Of a DNA stretch of 33,614 bases, positions 10,087-15,838 are shown piece after piece. Origin of the DNA: Candidatus Saccharimonadota bacterium (GTDB lineage: Bacteria; Patescibacteriota; Saccharimonadia; Saccharimonadales; UBA4665); NCBI GenBank assembly GCA_025928155.1, contig JAICKC010000015.1, forward strand, positions 1-33,614, read 5' to 3'. Position 1 is the stretch's first letter, and each line of letters opens with the position of its first letter. A program made the translations under genes and the position numbers. The notes beneath the pieces are model-generated. The model had not been told where the DNA came from. It saw only the letters and a list, made by a program, of their open reading frames with translations, and searched no databases.

Positions 10087-10119
10087 CCCAGCTAATTATC
10101 CGTCCCAGTCTGGCTATCG
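10081..10119. terminator. Hairpin between convergent genes
   Basis: CGATAGCCCAG (10081-10091) pairs with CTGGCTATCG (10110-10119) with one bulged C. The stop codon of the zinc-ribbon gene lies in one arm and that of the DUF4238 gene in the loop. The minus strand has a weak T-rich tail. It probably serves both genes. Confidence 0.55.
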
Positions 10120-11108
10120 CCCTCGAAAAAGTGTTTCTGAGCGATCTTTTGTATTTGCGCTTCGTCAAAGGTAGGTCTAAAGGTTGTTTTCGCCAAGCCT
10201 CCTTTCTGAACAAGTTTTTCTAGTAGCTCTTTGTTCGAACTGTAAAGCTCTCCACTAACTCTTGCTAACCCTTCGTTTGCATGGGCTAGGAATTCATCAC
10301 CGAACTCAGAGTGTATGATGATTGGTCTTCGAACACTCGTGATCATAAGTGCAGCATTTTTAGCGAACGGGAATATGACGGCCATGCCGGGGGATGCTGG
10401 CCCGAATCCAGTATTTGGAGCTGGCTTCCCATCTGGCGCCAAATGCACTGCAACATCTGATGTTATGAACTCACTCCCCGGTTTTGTATGTAGCACTATC
10501 CATTCACGCGCAGAGAATCCAATCCCTAGGCTAGTACCAACGTCGACGAGTGTCTTTAATTGCAAATTCTTATCATTATTGAGAGTTATGGTGCCTTCCA
10601 GGAGGGTCTTGATAAGCCGGGCTTTAGTTATCTTCGACGGTTCGTTGCCGGAGTTTTTGTTGTAATTGTCGATAAATTTTAAGAACGCCTCATCGGACAT
10701 ATTCTTAATCTCGGTTCGCATATTCTCAATAGAGTATTTACTGGCTCTGCCGGCCAGCTCCGTAATGATCCCTAGTTTTGGTGGCGTCCTAAAGTACTGC
10801 ATACCCACGAACTCAGAGATCGCGTGGTGTTCTTTGCTATCAATCTCTTGGCCCTTGTGTAGCTTTAAAAATGCAGGAGCGGCTTTGTCTTCAAGCGTGG
10901 AAAAGGCCTTTTCAAGAGAATATCTTTGCTCAGGCTCAAGGTTTATATATGAGTATAAGTGCCTTGCATGAGCAAGGCCCTTTGGTGTGCGTTGCTCATA
11001 TTTATCCTTTTTTCGATCGTAGTACCAAAGCTTACTTTCACCCTCAGCGAGAAAGTTTCGCTGAATTGTCTGAGGAAGGTAGTGGTGTCTCTTGGGGTTG
11101 CTAGCCAT
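10092..11108 (-). CDS. DUF4238-family protein
   Basis: This 338-residue protein begins NPKRHHYLPQTIQRNF and continues with KLWYYDRKKDKYE, the hallmark opening of DUF4238 (HHYxPQ...L..F...kLwvYd). The family has no established biochemical role and is often found in accessory islands. Later regions include FVGMQYFRTP, another typical DUF4238 segment. ATG 11108 is preferred to ATG 11114; neither has a clear Shine-Dalgarno. It is the only cargo gene on the minus strand between 8059 and 11752, so it has its own promoter and may have been acquired separately. Confidence 0.85.
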   Translation of the reverse strand: MASNPKRHHYLPQTIQRNFLAEGESKLWYYDRKKDKYEQRTPKGLAHARHLYSYINLEPEQRYSLEKAFSTLEDKAAPAFLKLHKGQEIDSKEHHAISEFVGMQYFRTPPKLGIITELAGRASKYSIENMRTEIKNMSDEAFLKFIDNYNKNSGNEPSKITKARLIKTLLEGTITLNNDKNLQLKTLVDVGTSLGIGFSAREWIVLHTKPGSEFITSDVAVHLAPDGKPAPNTGFGPASPGMAVIFPFAKNAALMITSVRRPIIIHSEFGDEFLAHANEGLARVSGELYSSNKELLEKLVQKGGLAKTTFRPTFDEAQIQKIAQKHFFEGDSQTGTDN

Positions 11109-11193
11109 GACCATAGTCTAACCCGTTTAACGAAATGACTGAACCTACGTGATTCCTTCCCTCTGTCTCCGCATTGTACGGGTAAAACACATC

Positions 11194-11579: not shown

Positions 11580-11752
11580 CCATCAACCCTATATCTTACC
11601 GAGAGCACCGCCGTTATTGGGTGCATGTGGCTAGACGGCACGGCTGGCGTAGCCCAGTGCACATCATTGGGTGTGTAGATAAATACGGCCGGTTACTGGA
11701 CAGCGCATCCTACGATGGTCTGGAGCGTGACATATTGTTACGCGACTGGTAA
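11576..11752 (+). CDS. Tiny coupled protein, 58 aa
   Basis: An ATG overlapping the previous stop (ATGA) opens a frame of 58 codons ending TAA at 11752. The protein starts MTINPISYREHRRYWVHVARRHG and is basic at the front, with a likely beta-strand region (VHIIGCVDKYGRLL) and an acidic helix at the end. No family is recognised. The 4-bp overlap and good codon use make it more likely a gene than chance. Confidence 0.6.
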   Translation: MTINPISYREHRRYWVHVARRHGWRSPVHIIGCVDKYGRLLDSASYDGLERDILLRDW

Positions 11753-11783
11753 TGATGCGTCCTGGGCATGACGGTAAACTGCC

Positions 11784-12545
11784 CTAAAGCAATGACGTGA
11801 GTTGCTTGGGTTTATAAACACTACTCCACGGGCTACCCTGATTCTCCAAAATGGCATGTATGTCAGCGGCCTTTAGCATTAGATCTTCCTCATCTATGCC
11901 CATGCTTTCTACCATCAGAGCGGTGCGGTACAAAAAGGTATGCTTGGCATTCGCGCTCGACAAAACGAAAGCGATAATGGGGTATTTACCACTCCATTCG
12001 TCTTCCTCGCTATGGTCTACAAGCTCGTTCAGGCGCTTTTTCATGGTGTCTACTGTCATATCTTGTGCAAATACGACTATCGCCTCATGCTTTTCAGGTG
12101 TACGGATATAGAGATCGGGGCGGTTCTTGGGGAACTGCTTATATCTGGCTAACTCGGACTTACTGAACAGTTCGGTACCGCTCGGCAGGCTCTGTTTAAT
12201 GGGTGAATAGCAGGAGAGGGCGGCTAGGCAGAAGTCTATGAAAGTGGGGGAGGCGGTATCATTTTTATATAGAGCATGGACGGCGGGTTCGGTAACGCCT
12301 AGCAGGCTGCGGGCGGCGCGGACACCGGCATGGTTCAGGTAGTAAAAGGCTGGCCGGCGGTCTATACGCCAATTAGGGTCGTACTTTTTGGTAACGTAGC
12401 CGAGTTTAACCAAGTGTTCCAAGACGACATAGGTTGAATCAGGACGAATGCCGAGAACTTGGGCGAGCAGTTTAGCAGTAACAAACCGAAACTTGAATAG
12501 CAGTTTTATGACGCGTTCTTGTTGAGGCGTTAGCTTATCGTTCAT
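11784..12545 (-). CDS. Replication-relaxation-like winged-helix protein
   Basis: This 253-residue protein opens with a winged helix-turn-helix: LTPQQERVIKLLFKFRFVT, AKLLAQVLG as the first helix pair, then a recognition helix and a wing ending FYYLNHAGV. That opening and the following alpha/beta region (PDLYIRTPEKHEAIVVF) match the replication-relaxation family found in conjugative plasmids and elements, thought to help start replication or transfer at the origin. The start is ATG 12545, preceded by AGGAGCGTAGGAAATG with Shine-Dalgarno-like sequence. It diverges from the RHH block across a 227-bp region that looks like an origin. A transcriptional regulator of the same fold is the alternative. 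Confidence 0.65.
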   Translation of the reverse strand: MNDKLTPQQERVIKLLFKFRFVTAKLLAQVLGIRPDSTYVVLEHLVKLGYVTKKYDPNWRIDRRPAFYYLNHAGVRAARSLLGVTEPAVHALYKNDTASPTFIDFCLAALSCYSPIKQSLPSGTELFSKSELARYKQFPKNRPDLYIRTPEKHEAIVVFAQDMTVDTMKKRLNELVDHSEEDEWSGKYPIIAFVLSSANAKHTFLYRTALMVESMGIDEEDLMLKAADIHAILENQGSPWSSVYKPKQLTSLL

Positions 12546-12597
12546 TTCCTACGCTCCTATACGTAAGTATATAAGAAGAGAGCGGTATTAGTATATG

Positions 12598-12625
12598 TTC
12601 ACCTCTGTTAGTTTACACCTATATA
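12598..12625 (+). promoter_or_regulatory. ACCTCTGT-type promoter, copy 3
   Basis: TTCACC (12598-12603), a 16-bp spacer and TATATA (12620-12625) repeat the layout seen before the secretion operon. ACCTCTGT is at 12601-12608. It could drive the small genes to the right, or act on the minus strand for the gene ending at 12545. Confidence 0.4.
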
Positions 12626-12646
12626 CCCCTAATGCACTCGGGGTAG

Positions 12647-12655
12647 TTATACACA
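12647..12655 (+). promoter_or_regulatory. DnaA-box-like site
   Basis: TTATACACA differs from the canonical TTATCCACA at one position and fits the relaxed consensus TTWTNCACA. One such match can occur by chance; its place beside the repeats is what makes it notable. Confidence 0.4.
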
Positions 12656-12681
12656 GGAATATCTGTAAAGAGTGGTTAATT

Positions 12682-12717
12682 AGCATTGCTATTTAAGGTA
12701 AACAGCATTACTATTTA
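12682..12717 (+). repeat. Two iteron-like direct repeats
   Basis: AGCATTGCTATTTA (12682-12695) and AGCATTACTATTTA (12704-12717) differ at one base and start 22 bp apart, two helical turns, so a protein would bind the same face of the DNA. The first copy contains a palindrome, TAGCA-T-TGCTA. Confidence 0.7.
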
Positions 12718-12772
12718 TATAGGTTGCACGTTAATAATTCGGCTAGCAAGTGGTAGAATAGGGGTAAGCAGT

Positions 12773-12931
12773 ATGGAACTAGCACAGAGGGAATTACTAG
12801 AATCACAAGCCTTGTCGGAAGTCTGCGCCTGCCAGTATTACGACCTGGCGGACACCATAGACGAAACGCCAGACAAAGATTTGATCGCAATTATTCGACA
12901 CAAAATAAAGTGCAGTATTTGCGGTAAATAG
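12773..12931 (+). CDS. Small CxxC protein, 52 aa
   Basis: ATG 12773 is preferred to the upstream ATG 12686 because a promoter-like pair (TAGAAT at 12754-12759) and a weak G-rich site lie just before it, and the upstream extension would be translated from the repeat region. The protein is acidic and helical (AQRELLESQALSEV) and ends in CSICGK, with another CAC upstream, so a small metal-binding protein is possible. Its stop lies within the inverted repeat copy at 12925-12938. It was not recognised as a known family. Confidence 0.5.
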   Translation: MELAQRELLESQALSEVCACQYYDLADTIDETPDKDLIAIIRHKIKCSICGK

Positions 12932-12938
12932 CAATGCT
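12925..12938 (-). repeat. Inverted copy of the iteron-like repeat, in the RHH promoter
   Basis: TAAATAGCAATGCT is the exact reverse complement of the repeat at 12682-12695. It overlaps the stop of the 12773 gene and the -35 region of the RHH gene promoter, as an autoregulatory operator would. Confidence 0.65.
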
Positions 12939-12957
12939 GTTAAAAATATGCTACAGT
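12929..12957 (+). promoter_or_regulatory. Promoter of the RHH gene
   Basis: TAGCAA (12929-12934), a 17-bp spacer and an extended -10 TGcTACAGT (TACAGT 12952-12957) end 7 nt before ATG 12965. The message would be leaderless. The -35 region lies inside the repeat copy. Confidence 0.5.
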
Positions 12958-12964
12958 AGGCTCG

Positions 12965-13168
12965 ATGAGCCTCAAGATTGTTAGTATGCAGGTCAAAATT
13001 AGCGAAACCGTGCGTGATCGCTTTAAAGAGGTTGCTCACGAGCATGGCATGCAGTTAAACGATTTTATACTGCACCTGGGTAAGAATTCCGGTGATCCGG
13101 AGCTTAAACGTCTTATTGAGATAGAGGAAAAAGAGAAACCACGCCGCGGACGACCGTGGGACAAGTAA
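12965..13168 (+). CDS. Ribbon-helix-helix DNA-binding regulator
   Basis: This 67-residue protein has the RHH plan: a short strand (SMQVKIS), helix A (TVRDRFKEVAHEHG), a turn, and helix B (QLNDFILHLGKNS), then a basic tail (KPRRGRPW). Such Arc/CopG-type dimers bind short operators in pairs and commonly control plasmid copy number or partition. The 14-bp repeats next to it, one inverted copy of which overlaps its own promoter, are the obvious candidate sites. A start at ATG 12986 would begin directly at the strand. A strong terminator follows. Confidence 0.7.
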   Translation: MSLKIVSMQVKISETVRDRFKEVAHEHGMQLNDFILHLGKNSGDPELKRLIEIEEKEKPRRGRPWDK

Positions 13169-13194
13169 ACTAAATTGCCTAGCCGAGTTATTAG

Positions 13195-13218
13195 CGTACC
13201 GACCACGGTACGTTTTTT
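13195..13218 (+). terminator. Rho-independent terminator
   Basis: CGTACCG-ACCA-CGGTACG is a perfect 7-bp stem with a 4-nt loop followed by TTTTTT. It closes the 12773-13168 transcription unit. Confidence 0.9.
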
Positions 13219-13232
13219 ATAGCGGAGGGTAT

Positions 13233-13469
13233 ATGAGCGGCATAGAGAGGTTCCATAACATTGCATCCATACTTACACGGTCGTTTCGTATTGACCATGA
13301 AGCGATTGAGGAGTTGCGCGAGATTATGGAGGCGCACGAGGGGCGGCCGGTATCGCACGATGAAGCCGAAACTATCGGGCGCGGCTTAGTGAATATTGCC
13401 GAAACTCTGGCGAACGGGCGTACTATAACCGCATCACGGGGCGGCACGGATGGACAACAGCAAGGCTAG
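13233..13469 (+). CDS. Small acidic helical protein upstream of the recombinase, 78 aa
   Basis: It has GGAGGG (13224-13229) just before ATG 13233. The protein is largely helical, with no cysteine cluster and no recognised domain. Its last 20 bp overlap the recombinase start, so the two are cotranslated. Small genes next to large serine recombinases can encode the directionality factor that permits excision; that role is only a positional guess here. Confidence 0.6.
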   Translation: MSGIERFHNIASILTRSFRIDHEAIEELREIMEAHEGRPVSHDEAETIGRGLVNIAETLANGRTITASRGGTDGQQQG

Positions 13470-14943
13470 TACCGTTATACTCGCCCGTGTGTCGTCCAAG
13501 TCTCAAGAGGATGAGGGCTACTCGTTGGACTCGCAGTTGAAGCTACTGCAAGGTTACTGCCAAACCAACAGCCTCAAGGTGGTCAAGGTATATAACATTG
13601 CCGAGACTGCCTCTAAAGAGCAAAGCCGCAAGGTATTCAGCGACCTGCTGGCCTACATTGAGAAGAATAATGTTTACAATCTGGCGGTAGAAAAGACTGA
13701 CCGCCTAACGCGCAATCTCCGTGATGCCGTAGCCATAGACGACTGGCTGCAAGGAGATAAAGACCGGATGTTGCACGCAGTTAAGGAAAACATCAAACTT
13801 CATAGAGAGTCGCGATCGGACGTGAAGTTTATGTGGAATATTCACCTAGCTGTCGCCAAGAAATATACCGACAACCTCCGCGAGGAGGCGATGAAAGGCT
13901 GGACGGAAAAGCTGGCACAGGGCTGGATGCCGTCACGCCCGCCAATGGGCTACATGACGGCCATACAGAACGGTAAGCGTATCCATGTGCCCGATCCAAG
14001 GTTTAAGAAATATATAGCCGAGGCCTTTGAGTTGTATCTGCGCCCGGGTGAGAGCGTTGAGTCGTTGGTAGCATACTTTGCGCAAGCGGGTGTTCTAACG
14101 GAGCGAGGCAGCCCACCACAAGGCACATCAGTCCATCGGATGTTGCGTAACCCCTACTATATGGGCATCATTCAGTTTGACGGTGAAACTTACCCAGGTG
14201 CGCATGAGCCGCTGACTACCAAGCAGGTATTCAAGCGGGTGCAACAAAAGCTGAGTGCCGGACTGCCGGTTAAACGGCTCAAGCATGACATATTGCTCAA
14301 GGGCATCATTACCTGTGGCTATTGCGCTAGATTGGTTACCTGGGAGAAGCAGAAAGGTATCTATTATGGCGCATGTCAGCGCTCTACGGACGATTGCAAG
14401 CTTAATAAATATCTACGCGAAGACTTGGCGATTGACATGCTTGCCACCAAGCTGGGCGAACTGGTGCATCCAAAACAAGCTTACATAGATTGGCTTATCC
14501 GCCACCTGGAAACGCGCTTTGCCGATGCGGCAAGTATGGCCGAGGAACACAAGCAGTCCATCAAAACGCGCATTACACGCCTGCAGAAGATGGACGAGAT
14601 GCTGTACGACGACAAACTAGCTGGTGAGATCACAAAAGAGCGTTACGAAACCAAGCATGCGGATATTGCCAAGCAGCTTGAAGACCTAAAAGACGAACTA
14701 CTGGTGGCTGACACCGAAATAGAAGACCAGAACCAGAAATCCATAGATATTCTACGCCTGATGCAAAGTGCTAAAGGTGAGTTTTTGAGCCAGAACCTGA
14801 CCAACGATCAAAAACGTGCAATTTTAACCGAATTATTCTCTGATATCATCCTCAAAGACAACACCCTATCTGTTAATCTCACATTCTTGGCGCAAAACAT
14901 GGCTGAAAAGGCGTTCAATTTTAACGAAAATAAGGAGGACTAA
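13450..14943 (+). CDS. Large serine recombinase (integrase)
   Basis: This 497-residue protein probably integrates and excises the element. The catalytic serine is Ser15 in ILARVSSKSQ, preceded by Arg13. The catalytic domain continues to TDRLTRNLRD near residue 80. A recombinase domain follows (GWMPSRPPMGY onward), then a zinc ribbon (ITCGYCARLV ... YYGACQRSTDDC) and a long coiled coil (about 385-455), the set that defines large serine recombinases. Size is within the usual 450-600 range. It overlaps the small gene upstream and lies beside the tRNA-Gln gene, as expected if the attachment site is adjacent. Confidence 0.93.
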   Translation: MDNSKASTVILARVSSKSQEDEGYSLDSQLKLLQGYCQTNSLKVVKVYNIAETASKEQSRKVFSDLLAYIEKNNVYNLAVEKTDRLTRNLRDAVAIDDWLQGDKDRMLHAVKENIKLHRESRSDVKFMWNIHLAVAKKYTDNLREEAMKGWTEKLAQGWMPSRPPMGYMTAIQNGKRIHVPDPRFKKYIAEAFELYLRPGESVESLVAYFAQAGVLTERGSPPQGTSVHRMLRNPYYMGIIQFDGETYPGAHEPLTTKQVFKRVQQKLSAGLPVKRLKHDILLKGIITCGYCARLVTWEKQKGIYYGACQRSTDDCKLNKYLREDLAIDMLATKLGELVHPKQAYIDWLIRHLETRFADAASMAEEHKQSIKTRITRLQKMDEMLYDDKLAGEITKERYETKHADIAKQLEDLKDELLVADTEIEDQNQKSIDILRLMQSAKGEFLSQNLTNDQKRAILTELFSDIILKDNTLSVNLTFLAQNMAEKAFNFNENKED

Positions 14944-14946
14944 AAA

Positions 14947-15108
14947 ATGCGTAACCGAACCAACAAAAAAGACCCCATCACTAGGGGCCAAAGTGTGGAA
15001 AACTCTGAAGTTTTCCGAAAGCATTCCTCTTGGCTGGGGATGAGGGATTCGAACCCCCGATCACGGGACCAGAACCCGTTGCCTTACCACTTGGCCAATC
15101 CCCAATAA
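14947..15108 (+). CDS. Short ORF after the recombinase running through the antisense tRNA
   Basis: AAGGAGG (14932-14938) stands 8 nt before ATG 14947, an excellent ribosome binding site directly after the recombinase stop. The 53-codon frame begins MRNRTNKKDPITRGQSV and then reads antisense through the whole tRNA-Gln gene. The second half is therefore not a natural protein sequence. Either the frame is meaningless, or it is a real element gene whose 3' end was replaced by host DNA on integration. Confidence 0.35.
   Translation: MRNRTNKKDPITRGQSVENSEVFRKHSSWLGMRDSNPRSRDQNPLPYHLANPQ
14964..14989 (-). terminator. Terminator of the tRNA-Gln gene
   Basis: On the minus strand GGCCCC and GGGGTC form a 6-bp stem (one G-T) around a 7-nt loop, followed by TTTTTT. 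It lies about 42 nt past the tRNA 3' end. Confidence 0.7.
14997..15016. other. Perfect inverted repeat near the element junction
   Basis: GGAAAACT-CTGA-AGTTTTCC is a perfect 8-bp stem with a 4-nt spacer between the recombinase and the tRNA 3' end. It could be part of the recombinase attachment site, since such sites are imperfect palindromes, or a processing hairpin of the tRNA precursor. Confidence 0.5.
15031..15104 (-). tRNA. tRNA-Gln (anticodon CUG)
   Basis: On the minus strand the 74-nt sequence folds as a tRNA: acceptor TGGGGAT pairs with ATCCCCA, the anticodon stem ACGGG/CCCGT encloses the loop TTCTGGT with anticodon CTG (reads CAG, Gln), and the T-loop contains GGTTCGAATC. The discriminator is G and the CCA end is encoded. 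The gene appears intact although an element recombinase lies next to its 3' end. Confidence 0.95.
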
Positions 15109-15166
15109 TTGACCTTGAGATTATACCGTAACAGATGCGATTTGCCTAGGGGCGCAGGTAAGGCTG

Positions 15167-15172
15167 TATACT
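15167..15172 (+). promoter_or_regulatory. -10 box, near-leaderless start
   Basis: TATACT ends 9 nt before ATG 15182 and no Shine-Dalgarno is present. Confidence 0.5.
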
Positions 15173-15181
15173 AAGAAGCAT

Positions 15182-15838
15182 ATGCGCTTGCAGAAACGCC
15201 AACGCCAGATCTTCATCGTGGCGGCAGCACTTACTGCTCTTTCGGCTATTTTGTACTGTAGCTGGCCGCTCGGCTTTGTGTTTAACCCGAAAGCAATGCG
15301 GGAAGGACTGGCCAGCGAGCTGGGCGCCTTTGGGCAGCCGTATAACTGGGTGTTCATATGGGGTGATATTGTGAGCGGTGTGTTGCTAGTCGCCGCGGTG
15401 GTCTTACTAATACGAGTGTATAGAGTGACCGGTTGGGCGCGCCTGGCATTACTGTTTTTGGCGATATACGGTACATGCGGAGCGCTTGACGCGGCACTAC
15501 CGATGCATTGTCTACCATCGGAACAGGTCTGCGGCCCGGTTTTGCATGACCCGATGCTTATCCTGCACGGCGGGATTGACTTTATCGGCTCGACGGCGCT
15601 CATTGGTACGCTCATAGCTGCTGCAGTCTTCGTGCACAGACATAATCGCGGGTGGCGGTCATGGATTTATATCATCGGCGTTGGTGGTACACTTTTTGCC
15701 ATTGCCTCAGGCTATTTTTACATATGGGGCGGCCCGGGCTACTGGGCGCAGCGCTATTACATTACGCTGAGCTGCATTTGGGTTGCGAGTATTCCGTTTG
15801 TGCTTCGCCCCCGACGTGCTATACTGGTGAAGTCTTAA
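15182..15838 (+). CDS. DUF998-like integral membrane protein
   Basis: This 218-residue protein has about six membrane helices. Features of DUF998 are visible: a paired-helix layout, a conserved loop GTCGALDAALPMHC and a following LHGGIDFIGS helix carrying His and Asp. The family is of unknown function, with suggested transport or enzyme roles. The first gene on the chromosomal side of the tRNA, it has its own promoter. Two cysteines after ALPMHC could form a disulfide outside the cell. Confidence 0.7.
   Translation: MRLQKRQRQIFIVAAALTALSAILYCSWPLGFVFNPKAMREGLASELGAFGQPYNWVFIWGDIVSGVLLVAAVVLLIRVYRVTGWARLALLFLAIYGTCGALDAALPMHCLPSEQVCGPVLHDPMLILHGGIDFIGSTALIGTLIAAAVFVHRHNRGWRSWIYIIGVGGTLFAIASGYFYIWGGPGYWAQRYYITLSCIWVASIPFVLRPRRAILVKS

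Follow-up and report, generated by a model that had tools for sequence, protein, structure and literature searches.

The short repeats beside the gene for a ribbon-helix-helix (RHH) protein in the window (the whole stretch of DNA that was analysed, a complete 33.6-kb contig) appear to be operators of an RHH repressor placed on two promoters, P1 and P3. RNA from P1 would carry an arm which disarms a terminator standing before an integrase gene. We give this reading a probability of about 0.7. The RHH repressor would autoregulate through two operators, S1 and S2, lying over the -35 and -10 of P1, and through a third, S3, lying over P3. With plentiful repressor, P1 would be silent while P3 would be on at a low, self-limited level, giving a short, leaderless message for the RHH protein which stops at the terminator (13194–13219), with the integrase off. 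When the repressor falls, P1 would fire and its RNA would start with a 28-nt arm. This 5′ arm would pair with the segment at 13175–13204, made about 450 nt later, removing the left arm of the terminator. With the terminator disarmed, the polymerase would continue into a 78-aa ORF and the serine integrase; in relatives which have a start-site hairpin, this hairpin would be disarmed likewise. Binding by the RHH protein, the activity of P1 and P3 and the raising of integrase expression by the pairing are steps that we infer from the sequence.

Operators, promoters and the RHH protein

The sequence-only reading had reported two 14-bp direct repeats 22 bp apart, together with an exact inverted copy on the -35 region of the RHH gene, and all three sites are present. 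Copy 1, read directly, is AGCATTGCTATTTA (12682–12695) and copy 2 is AGCATTACTATTTA (12704–12717), identical at 13 of 14 positions with a start-to-start distance of 22 bp; the segment 12925–12938 is the exact reverse complement of AGCATTGCTATTTA. The repeats are far above chance, the consensus YAGCATTRCTATTTA having exactly three matches across the 1.3-Mb assembly, all of them at the 12546–12964 locus. Each 14-bp copy forms the core of a 19-bp near-palindrome with dyad symmetry at 14–16 of the 19 positions, and searches with the repeat consensus score in both orientations. The direct and inverted orientations that had been described carry little meaning, because all copies are near-palindromic. 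Such 19-bp near-palindromic operators have so far been seen in Saccharibacteria only.

Operator S1 (TAATTAGCATTGCTATTTA, 12677–12695) holds in its right half the -35 hexamer TTGCTA (12686–12691) of P1 and is kept in all 17 relatives with an RHH protein of the KIVSMQ type. Operator S2 (TAAACAGCATTACTATTTA, 12699–12717), whose centre is 22 bp from that of S1, holds in its right half the -10 hexamer TACTAT (12709–12714). The predicted promoter P1 (12686–12714, forward strand) has a 17-bp spacer and a transcription start near 12720. Across the KIVSMQ-type relatives S1 supplies a -35 of TTGCTT or TTGCTA, S2 supplies a -10 of TACTAT, and the spacer is 17 bp. Operator S3 (TAAATAGCAATGCTGTTAA, 12925–12943) covers the -35 and spacer of the putative promoter P3, in keeping with the earlier suggestion that the inverted copy is an operator on the RHH gene's own promoter, with the RHH protein as its likely binder. 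The -10 hexamer of P3, TACAGT (12952–12957, forward strand), is located 7 nt before the RHH ATG. Every locus of the KIVSMQ type has a spacing of 7 or 8 nt here, which implies a leaderless RHH mRNA that lacks the 5′ arm. S3 is weak or absent in about one third of the loci. P1 and P3 are promoters predicted from their hexamers and spacing. A promoter-like sequence, TTAATA-17-TAGAAT with a TG extension, is also present within the 5′ arm (12731–12759) and could, in this window, start an RNA without that arm; a few relatives (G253, G357, G105 and G168) have comparable -10-like sequences.

The RHH gene (12965–13168, forward strand) encodes a 67-aa protein of the KIVSMQ type. Its profile matches are weak, and no sequence family reaches the cut-off in family searches. 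The AlphaFold model (pLDDT 84) has a predicted ribbon-helix-helix fold, the best Foldseek match being the Arc repressor (probability 0.99, rmsd 1.0); Arc, AmrZ and the RHH domains of PutA are the top matches, with no E-value below 0.001. A search based on the RHH protein found a homologue in 27 of 393 genomes of the order. Both the S1 and S2 palindromes are present in 17/17 loci of the KIVSMQ type, always with a spacing of 22 bp. A scan with the S1–S2 DNA pattern alone over 84,980 species genomes returned 12 stretches, every one of which encodes a KIVSMQ-type RHH protein directly downstream; the pattern was not found in viral contigs. RHH homologues with another beta-strand (RIQLQID and similar) have none of the KIVSMQ-type sites. 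Most of their loci carry the palindrome TTGTASTACAA at P1 (0–1 mismatch in 7 of 9), and several carry it at P3 too (4–5 of 9). The -35/17/-10 geometry of P1 is common to both RHH types although their operators differ. Since the operator type changes together with the RHH type, the RHH protein is the probable binder, and it likely binds S1, S2 and S3; this co-change of operator and protein is the strongest support short of binding.

Pairing of the two arms and the OFF hairpin

Aligned intergenic regions contain a conserved leader, TTAAYAATTCGGCTAG, and an inverted partner just past the RHH gene. In the window, the 5′ arm of the leader RNA (GGTTGCACGTTAATAATTCGGCTAGCAA, 12722–12749, forward strand, 28 nt) is the predicted antiterminator, as suggested by duplex prediction, covariation and folding, and it is complementary to the 3′ arm (13175–13204, forward strand) about 450 nt away. 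RNA duplex prediction gives arm duplexes of 24–35 bp with energies near −40 kcal/mol, whereas shuffled partners yield about −17 kcal/mol, and cognate pairs of arms reach −39.9 kcal/mol compared with −28.2 kcal/mol for non-cognate pairs. In an alignment of 22 distinct loci over a 24-pair helix, changes have occurred on both sides in 18 of the 24 pairs, all five measures exceed all shuffles (0/500), and the signal is lost when the register is slid by 1 to 3 nt. Transition differences between the arms are G·U-compatible in the sense RNA in 32 cases and in the opposite sense in 4 (binomial p = 2e-6, an optimistic value as the loci are related and non-independent), with the G·U states spread across seven columns of the alignment. 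This direction indicates pairing in the sense RNA, as shared DNA sites or gene conversion predict no direction. By these comparative data the arm pairing is a conserved, covarying RNA helix of the sense strand.

The strongest pairing (−54.8 kcal/mol) was obtained in G414, a genome that belongs to a different order of the class and had not been used in finding the pattern. Short arm pairing at most is present in G387, G437 and G284, and no convincing pairing was found in the diverged homologues G396, G172 and G410. In G012 (locus L004, about 705–1710) about 970 bp lie between the arms and include several additional small ORFs; the switch can thus accommodate loops of widely differing content. 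Among known RNA families, only the tRNA reaches the Rfam gathering score in 11700–15200.

An intrinsic terminator (13194–13219, forward strand), located between the RHH gene and the integrase operon, consists of a stem at 13194–13213 followed by T6, and its left arm falls within the 3′ arm. Roughly half of the relatives share this layout, with the left arm of a terminator inside the 3′ arm. The others, such as G180, G218, G224 and L090, have no terminator; there the 3′ arm pairs instead with the start codon and Shine-Dalgarno sequence belonging to the ORF that follows. In both designs the left arm of the OFF hairpin lies within the 3′ arm, and the same arm occurs with both platforms, terminator and start-site hairpin. 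As the 5′ arm and the OFF hairpin share the 3′ arm, they cannot form together, and the predicted structure is that of an expression platform, with two mutually exclusive helices sharing one strand. Partition-function folding gives the terminator of the window a probability of 0.99 in the P3 RNA, 0.02 in the P1 RNA and 0.96 with a shuffled leader, and the OFF hairpin median probabilities over 22 loci of 0.94 in the P3 RNA and 0.07 in the P1 RNA, these being equilibrium values that ignore ribosomes translating the RHH gene between the arms. The hairpin stays likely even in the P1 RNA in G357 and G224, and has an intermediate probability there in G012, G288, G287, G135 and G336.

Two other explanations of the arms were considered. 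Their adjacency to a serine recombinase gene, and the variable content of the enclosed segment among relatives, would suit inverted DNA sites at which the recombinase flips an RHH cassette, or protein sites homogenised by gene conversion. However, identity at the DNA level does not predict the G·U-directional differences (32:4), and the orientation is constant: wherever both partners were detected, the RHH and Replic_Relax-like genes are divergent (13/13 loci) and the RHH gene runs in the same direction as the integrase (10/10 loci). The constant orientation speaks against an invertible RHH cassette, and we consider DNA-level readings of the arms very improbable. It is also conceivable that a genuine RNA helix acts not in antitermination but in mRNA stability or in processing by RNase III, keeping the messages for RHH protein and integrase apart; arms of 24–35 bp would be good double-strand substrates for this. 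From a bare processing stem one would not expect the left arm of a terminator or start-site hairpin to lie within the 3′ arm in every case, and this role appears rather unlikely to us.

The probable integrating element and rival readings of the sites

The module appears to be part of a mobile element that is integrated in the chromosome. To the left of the repeats are genes of type IV secretion (VirB4, VirD4-like, PrgI and TrbL/VirB6-like) and for a CHAP protein; to the right, the RHH gene and the 78-aa ORF are followed by a large serine recombinase, tRNA-Gln and then chromosomal genes such as that for SAM synthetase. A divergent gene on the reverse strand (11784–12545) encodes a winged-helix protein whose similarity to Replic_Relax is weak and falls below the Pfam cut-off. 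A gene for a DUF4238 protein is present within the element on the opposite strand (10092–11114). Between the 5′ arm and the RHH gene lies a small ORF of 52 aa with a CxC...CxxC pattern (12773–12931, forward strand), encoding a putative zinc protein which has no database match and is absent from some relatives. The protein, with the motif VCACxYYDLxDT, is conserved in Saccharibacteria and also in some genomes in which no matching RHH protein was found. No family and no convincing structural match were obtained for this protein, which is predicted to be helical; an antirepressor or an excision factor are candidate roles.

The 78-aa ORF (13233–13469, forward strand) overlaps the start of the integrase gene, which makes translational coupling likely, and in the relatives read the ORF after the 3′ arm likewise overlaps the integrase gene. 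The integrase (13450–14943, forward strand), the predicted target of the switch, is a large serine recombinase (PF00239, PF07508; phrog_95 integrase). The tRNA-Gln gene beside it (15031–15104, reverse strand) is antiparallel to it and is the likely integration site. In 14 of 16 relatives (L099–L114) a tRNA gene that runs antiparallel to the module lies just past the integrase, with its 3′ end facing the integrase side. The isoacceptors are many and varied (Gln, Trp, Glu, Leu, Lys and Phe). Targeting of tRNA genes is usual for tyrosine integrases and less so for large serine recombinases. A search of the element's own genome for a duplicate attachment site of the tRNA-Gln end gave only other tRNA-like matches and short chance matches, and the left end of the element is consequently not located.

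The sequence-only reading had seen in the locus the logic of iteron plasmids and suggested that the element replicates as an episome, or at least controls its transfer in this way. At an iteron-type origin an initiator would bind the direct repeats by a DnaA box while the inverted copy would autoregulate the initiator gene. Apart from the repeat layout, what speaks for this is the AT-rich DNA beside the repeats, which is indeed present (GC 37% in 12546–12772 vs 52.6% for the whole window), and a single DnaA-box match. The DnaA-box-like site exists (TTATACACA, 12647–12655), but chance alone would give 0.91 occurrences of TTATNCACA per window, and TTWTNCACA occurs in the interval in only 3 of 24 related loci, at differing positions and strands; we reject a functional DnaA box on account of this chance-level frequency and the lack of conservation. 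The sites are palindromic, and the only two copies in direct orientation both overlap the P1 hexamers: rather than an origin, they supply the -35 and -10 of P1 in all 17 KIVSMQ-type relatives. A scan of the 16 ORFs on the element side revealed no Rep-type initiator; the contig lacks the left part of the element. The relatives also speak against an episomal state, as their modules lie within chromosome-size contigs of about 0.4–1.1 Mb, adjoining an integrase and usually a tRNA gene. An iteron origin is, in our view, hardly credible.

The RHH protein might alternatively act mainly as an auxiliary relaxosome protein, with S1 and S2 as part of an oriT and autoregulation being secondary. Genes of type IV secretion and for the Replic_Relax-like protein are nearby, and RHH accessory factors which bind oriT are known, e.g. 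the RHH proteins of pLS20 and PcfF of pCF10 (PMC5675868, PMC6514445). However, the sites coincide with the -35 and -10 hexamers, the same operator recurs at P3, and neither a nick site nor a relaxase was identified in the element DNA analysed, all of which makes this role improbable. Operators controlling P1 and P3 remain our preferred reading of the sites. A hairpin-like segment, ACCCC...GGGGT, is located at 12625–12660 between the Replic_Relax-like gene and P1; in relatives roughly the corresponding position is taken by a different hairpin with AT-rich DNA after it. It is possible that this segment is an oriT or the terminator of the divergent gene.

Significance and comparison with known systems

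Saccharibacteria live on other bacteria. To our knowledge, almost nothing is known about gene regulation in these members of the CPR/Patescibacteria or about the mobility decisions of their elements. We lean, somewhat less firmly than for the circuit in the window, towards a ligand-free class of cis-acting RNA switches conserved in Saccharibacterial integrative elements, in which the RHH protein would set the choice of promoter and the arm would disarm a terminator or a start-site hairpin. If this is true, the integration genes would answer only to transcripts from the repressed promoter P1. The circuit is compact and testable: it consists of the operators, a pair of promoters and a leader arm with its target, and the bases to be mutated are defined. 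It would extend RNA attenuation to hundreds of nucleotides across coding genes, with the origin of the transcript as the signal, and inverted arms of this kind may have been taken for plain inverted repeats in other mobile elements. Our literature search found no mobile element in which direct pairing brings about antitermination over a long range, which is weak evidence of novelty as most subscription journals lay outside the search.

The proposed repressor resembles Arc-type RHH repressors in its predicted fold, in having operators over its own promoter and in the paired sites about two helical turns apart; unlike them, it belongs to no sequence family at the cut-off, and its operators are 19-bp near-palindromes. 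The RNA part is similar to the expression platforms of riboswitches and attenuators in its exclusive helices and in an OFF state formed by a terminator or a hairpin hiding the Shine-Dalgarno sequence. However, about 450 nt and one or more genes separate the competing strand here from its downstream target, and the outcome would be decided by the choice of promoter instead of by a ligand or a stalled ribosome.

Processive antiterminators (conAn, canT, put and EAR) read through several unrelated terminators. In the conAn system of pLS20, terminators at which RNA from an internal promoter stops are passed only by transcripts that begin at the main promoter; the system is processive, alters the polymerase and requires the protein ConAn1 (PMC8955417). 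The likeness to the switch proposed here is that RNA from one promoter reads through a terminator which stops that of another, internal promoter. Unlike conAn, a single terminator or start site would be disarmed here by predicted base pairing, and no protein partner is predicted. The canT element of ICE Tn916 is a cis-acting RNA antiterminator which is processive and acts on unrelated terminators (PMC11658703). The arm described here would likewise be a cis-acting RNA antiterminator in an integrative element, but, unlike canT, it matches its own target only.
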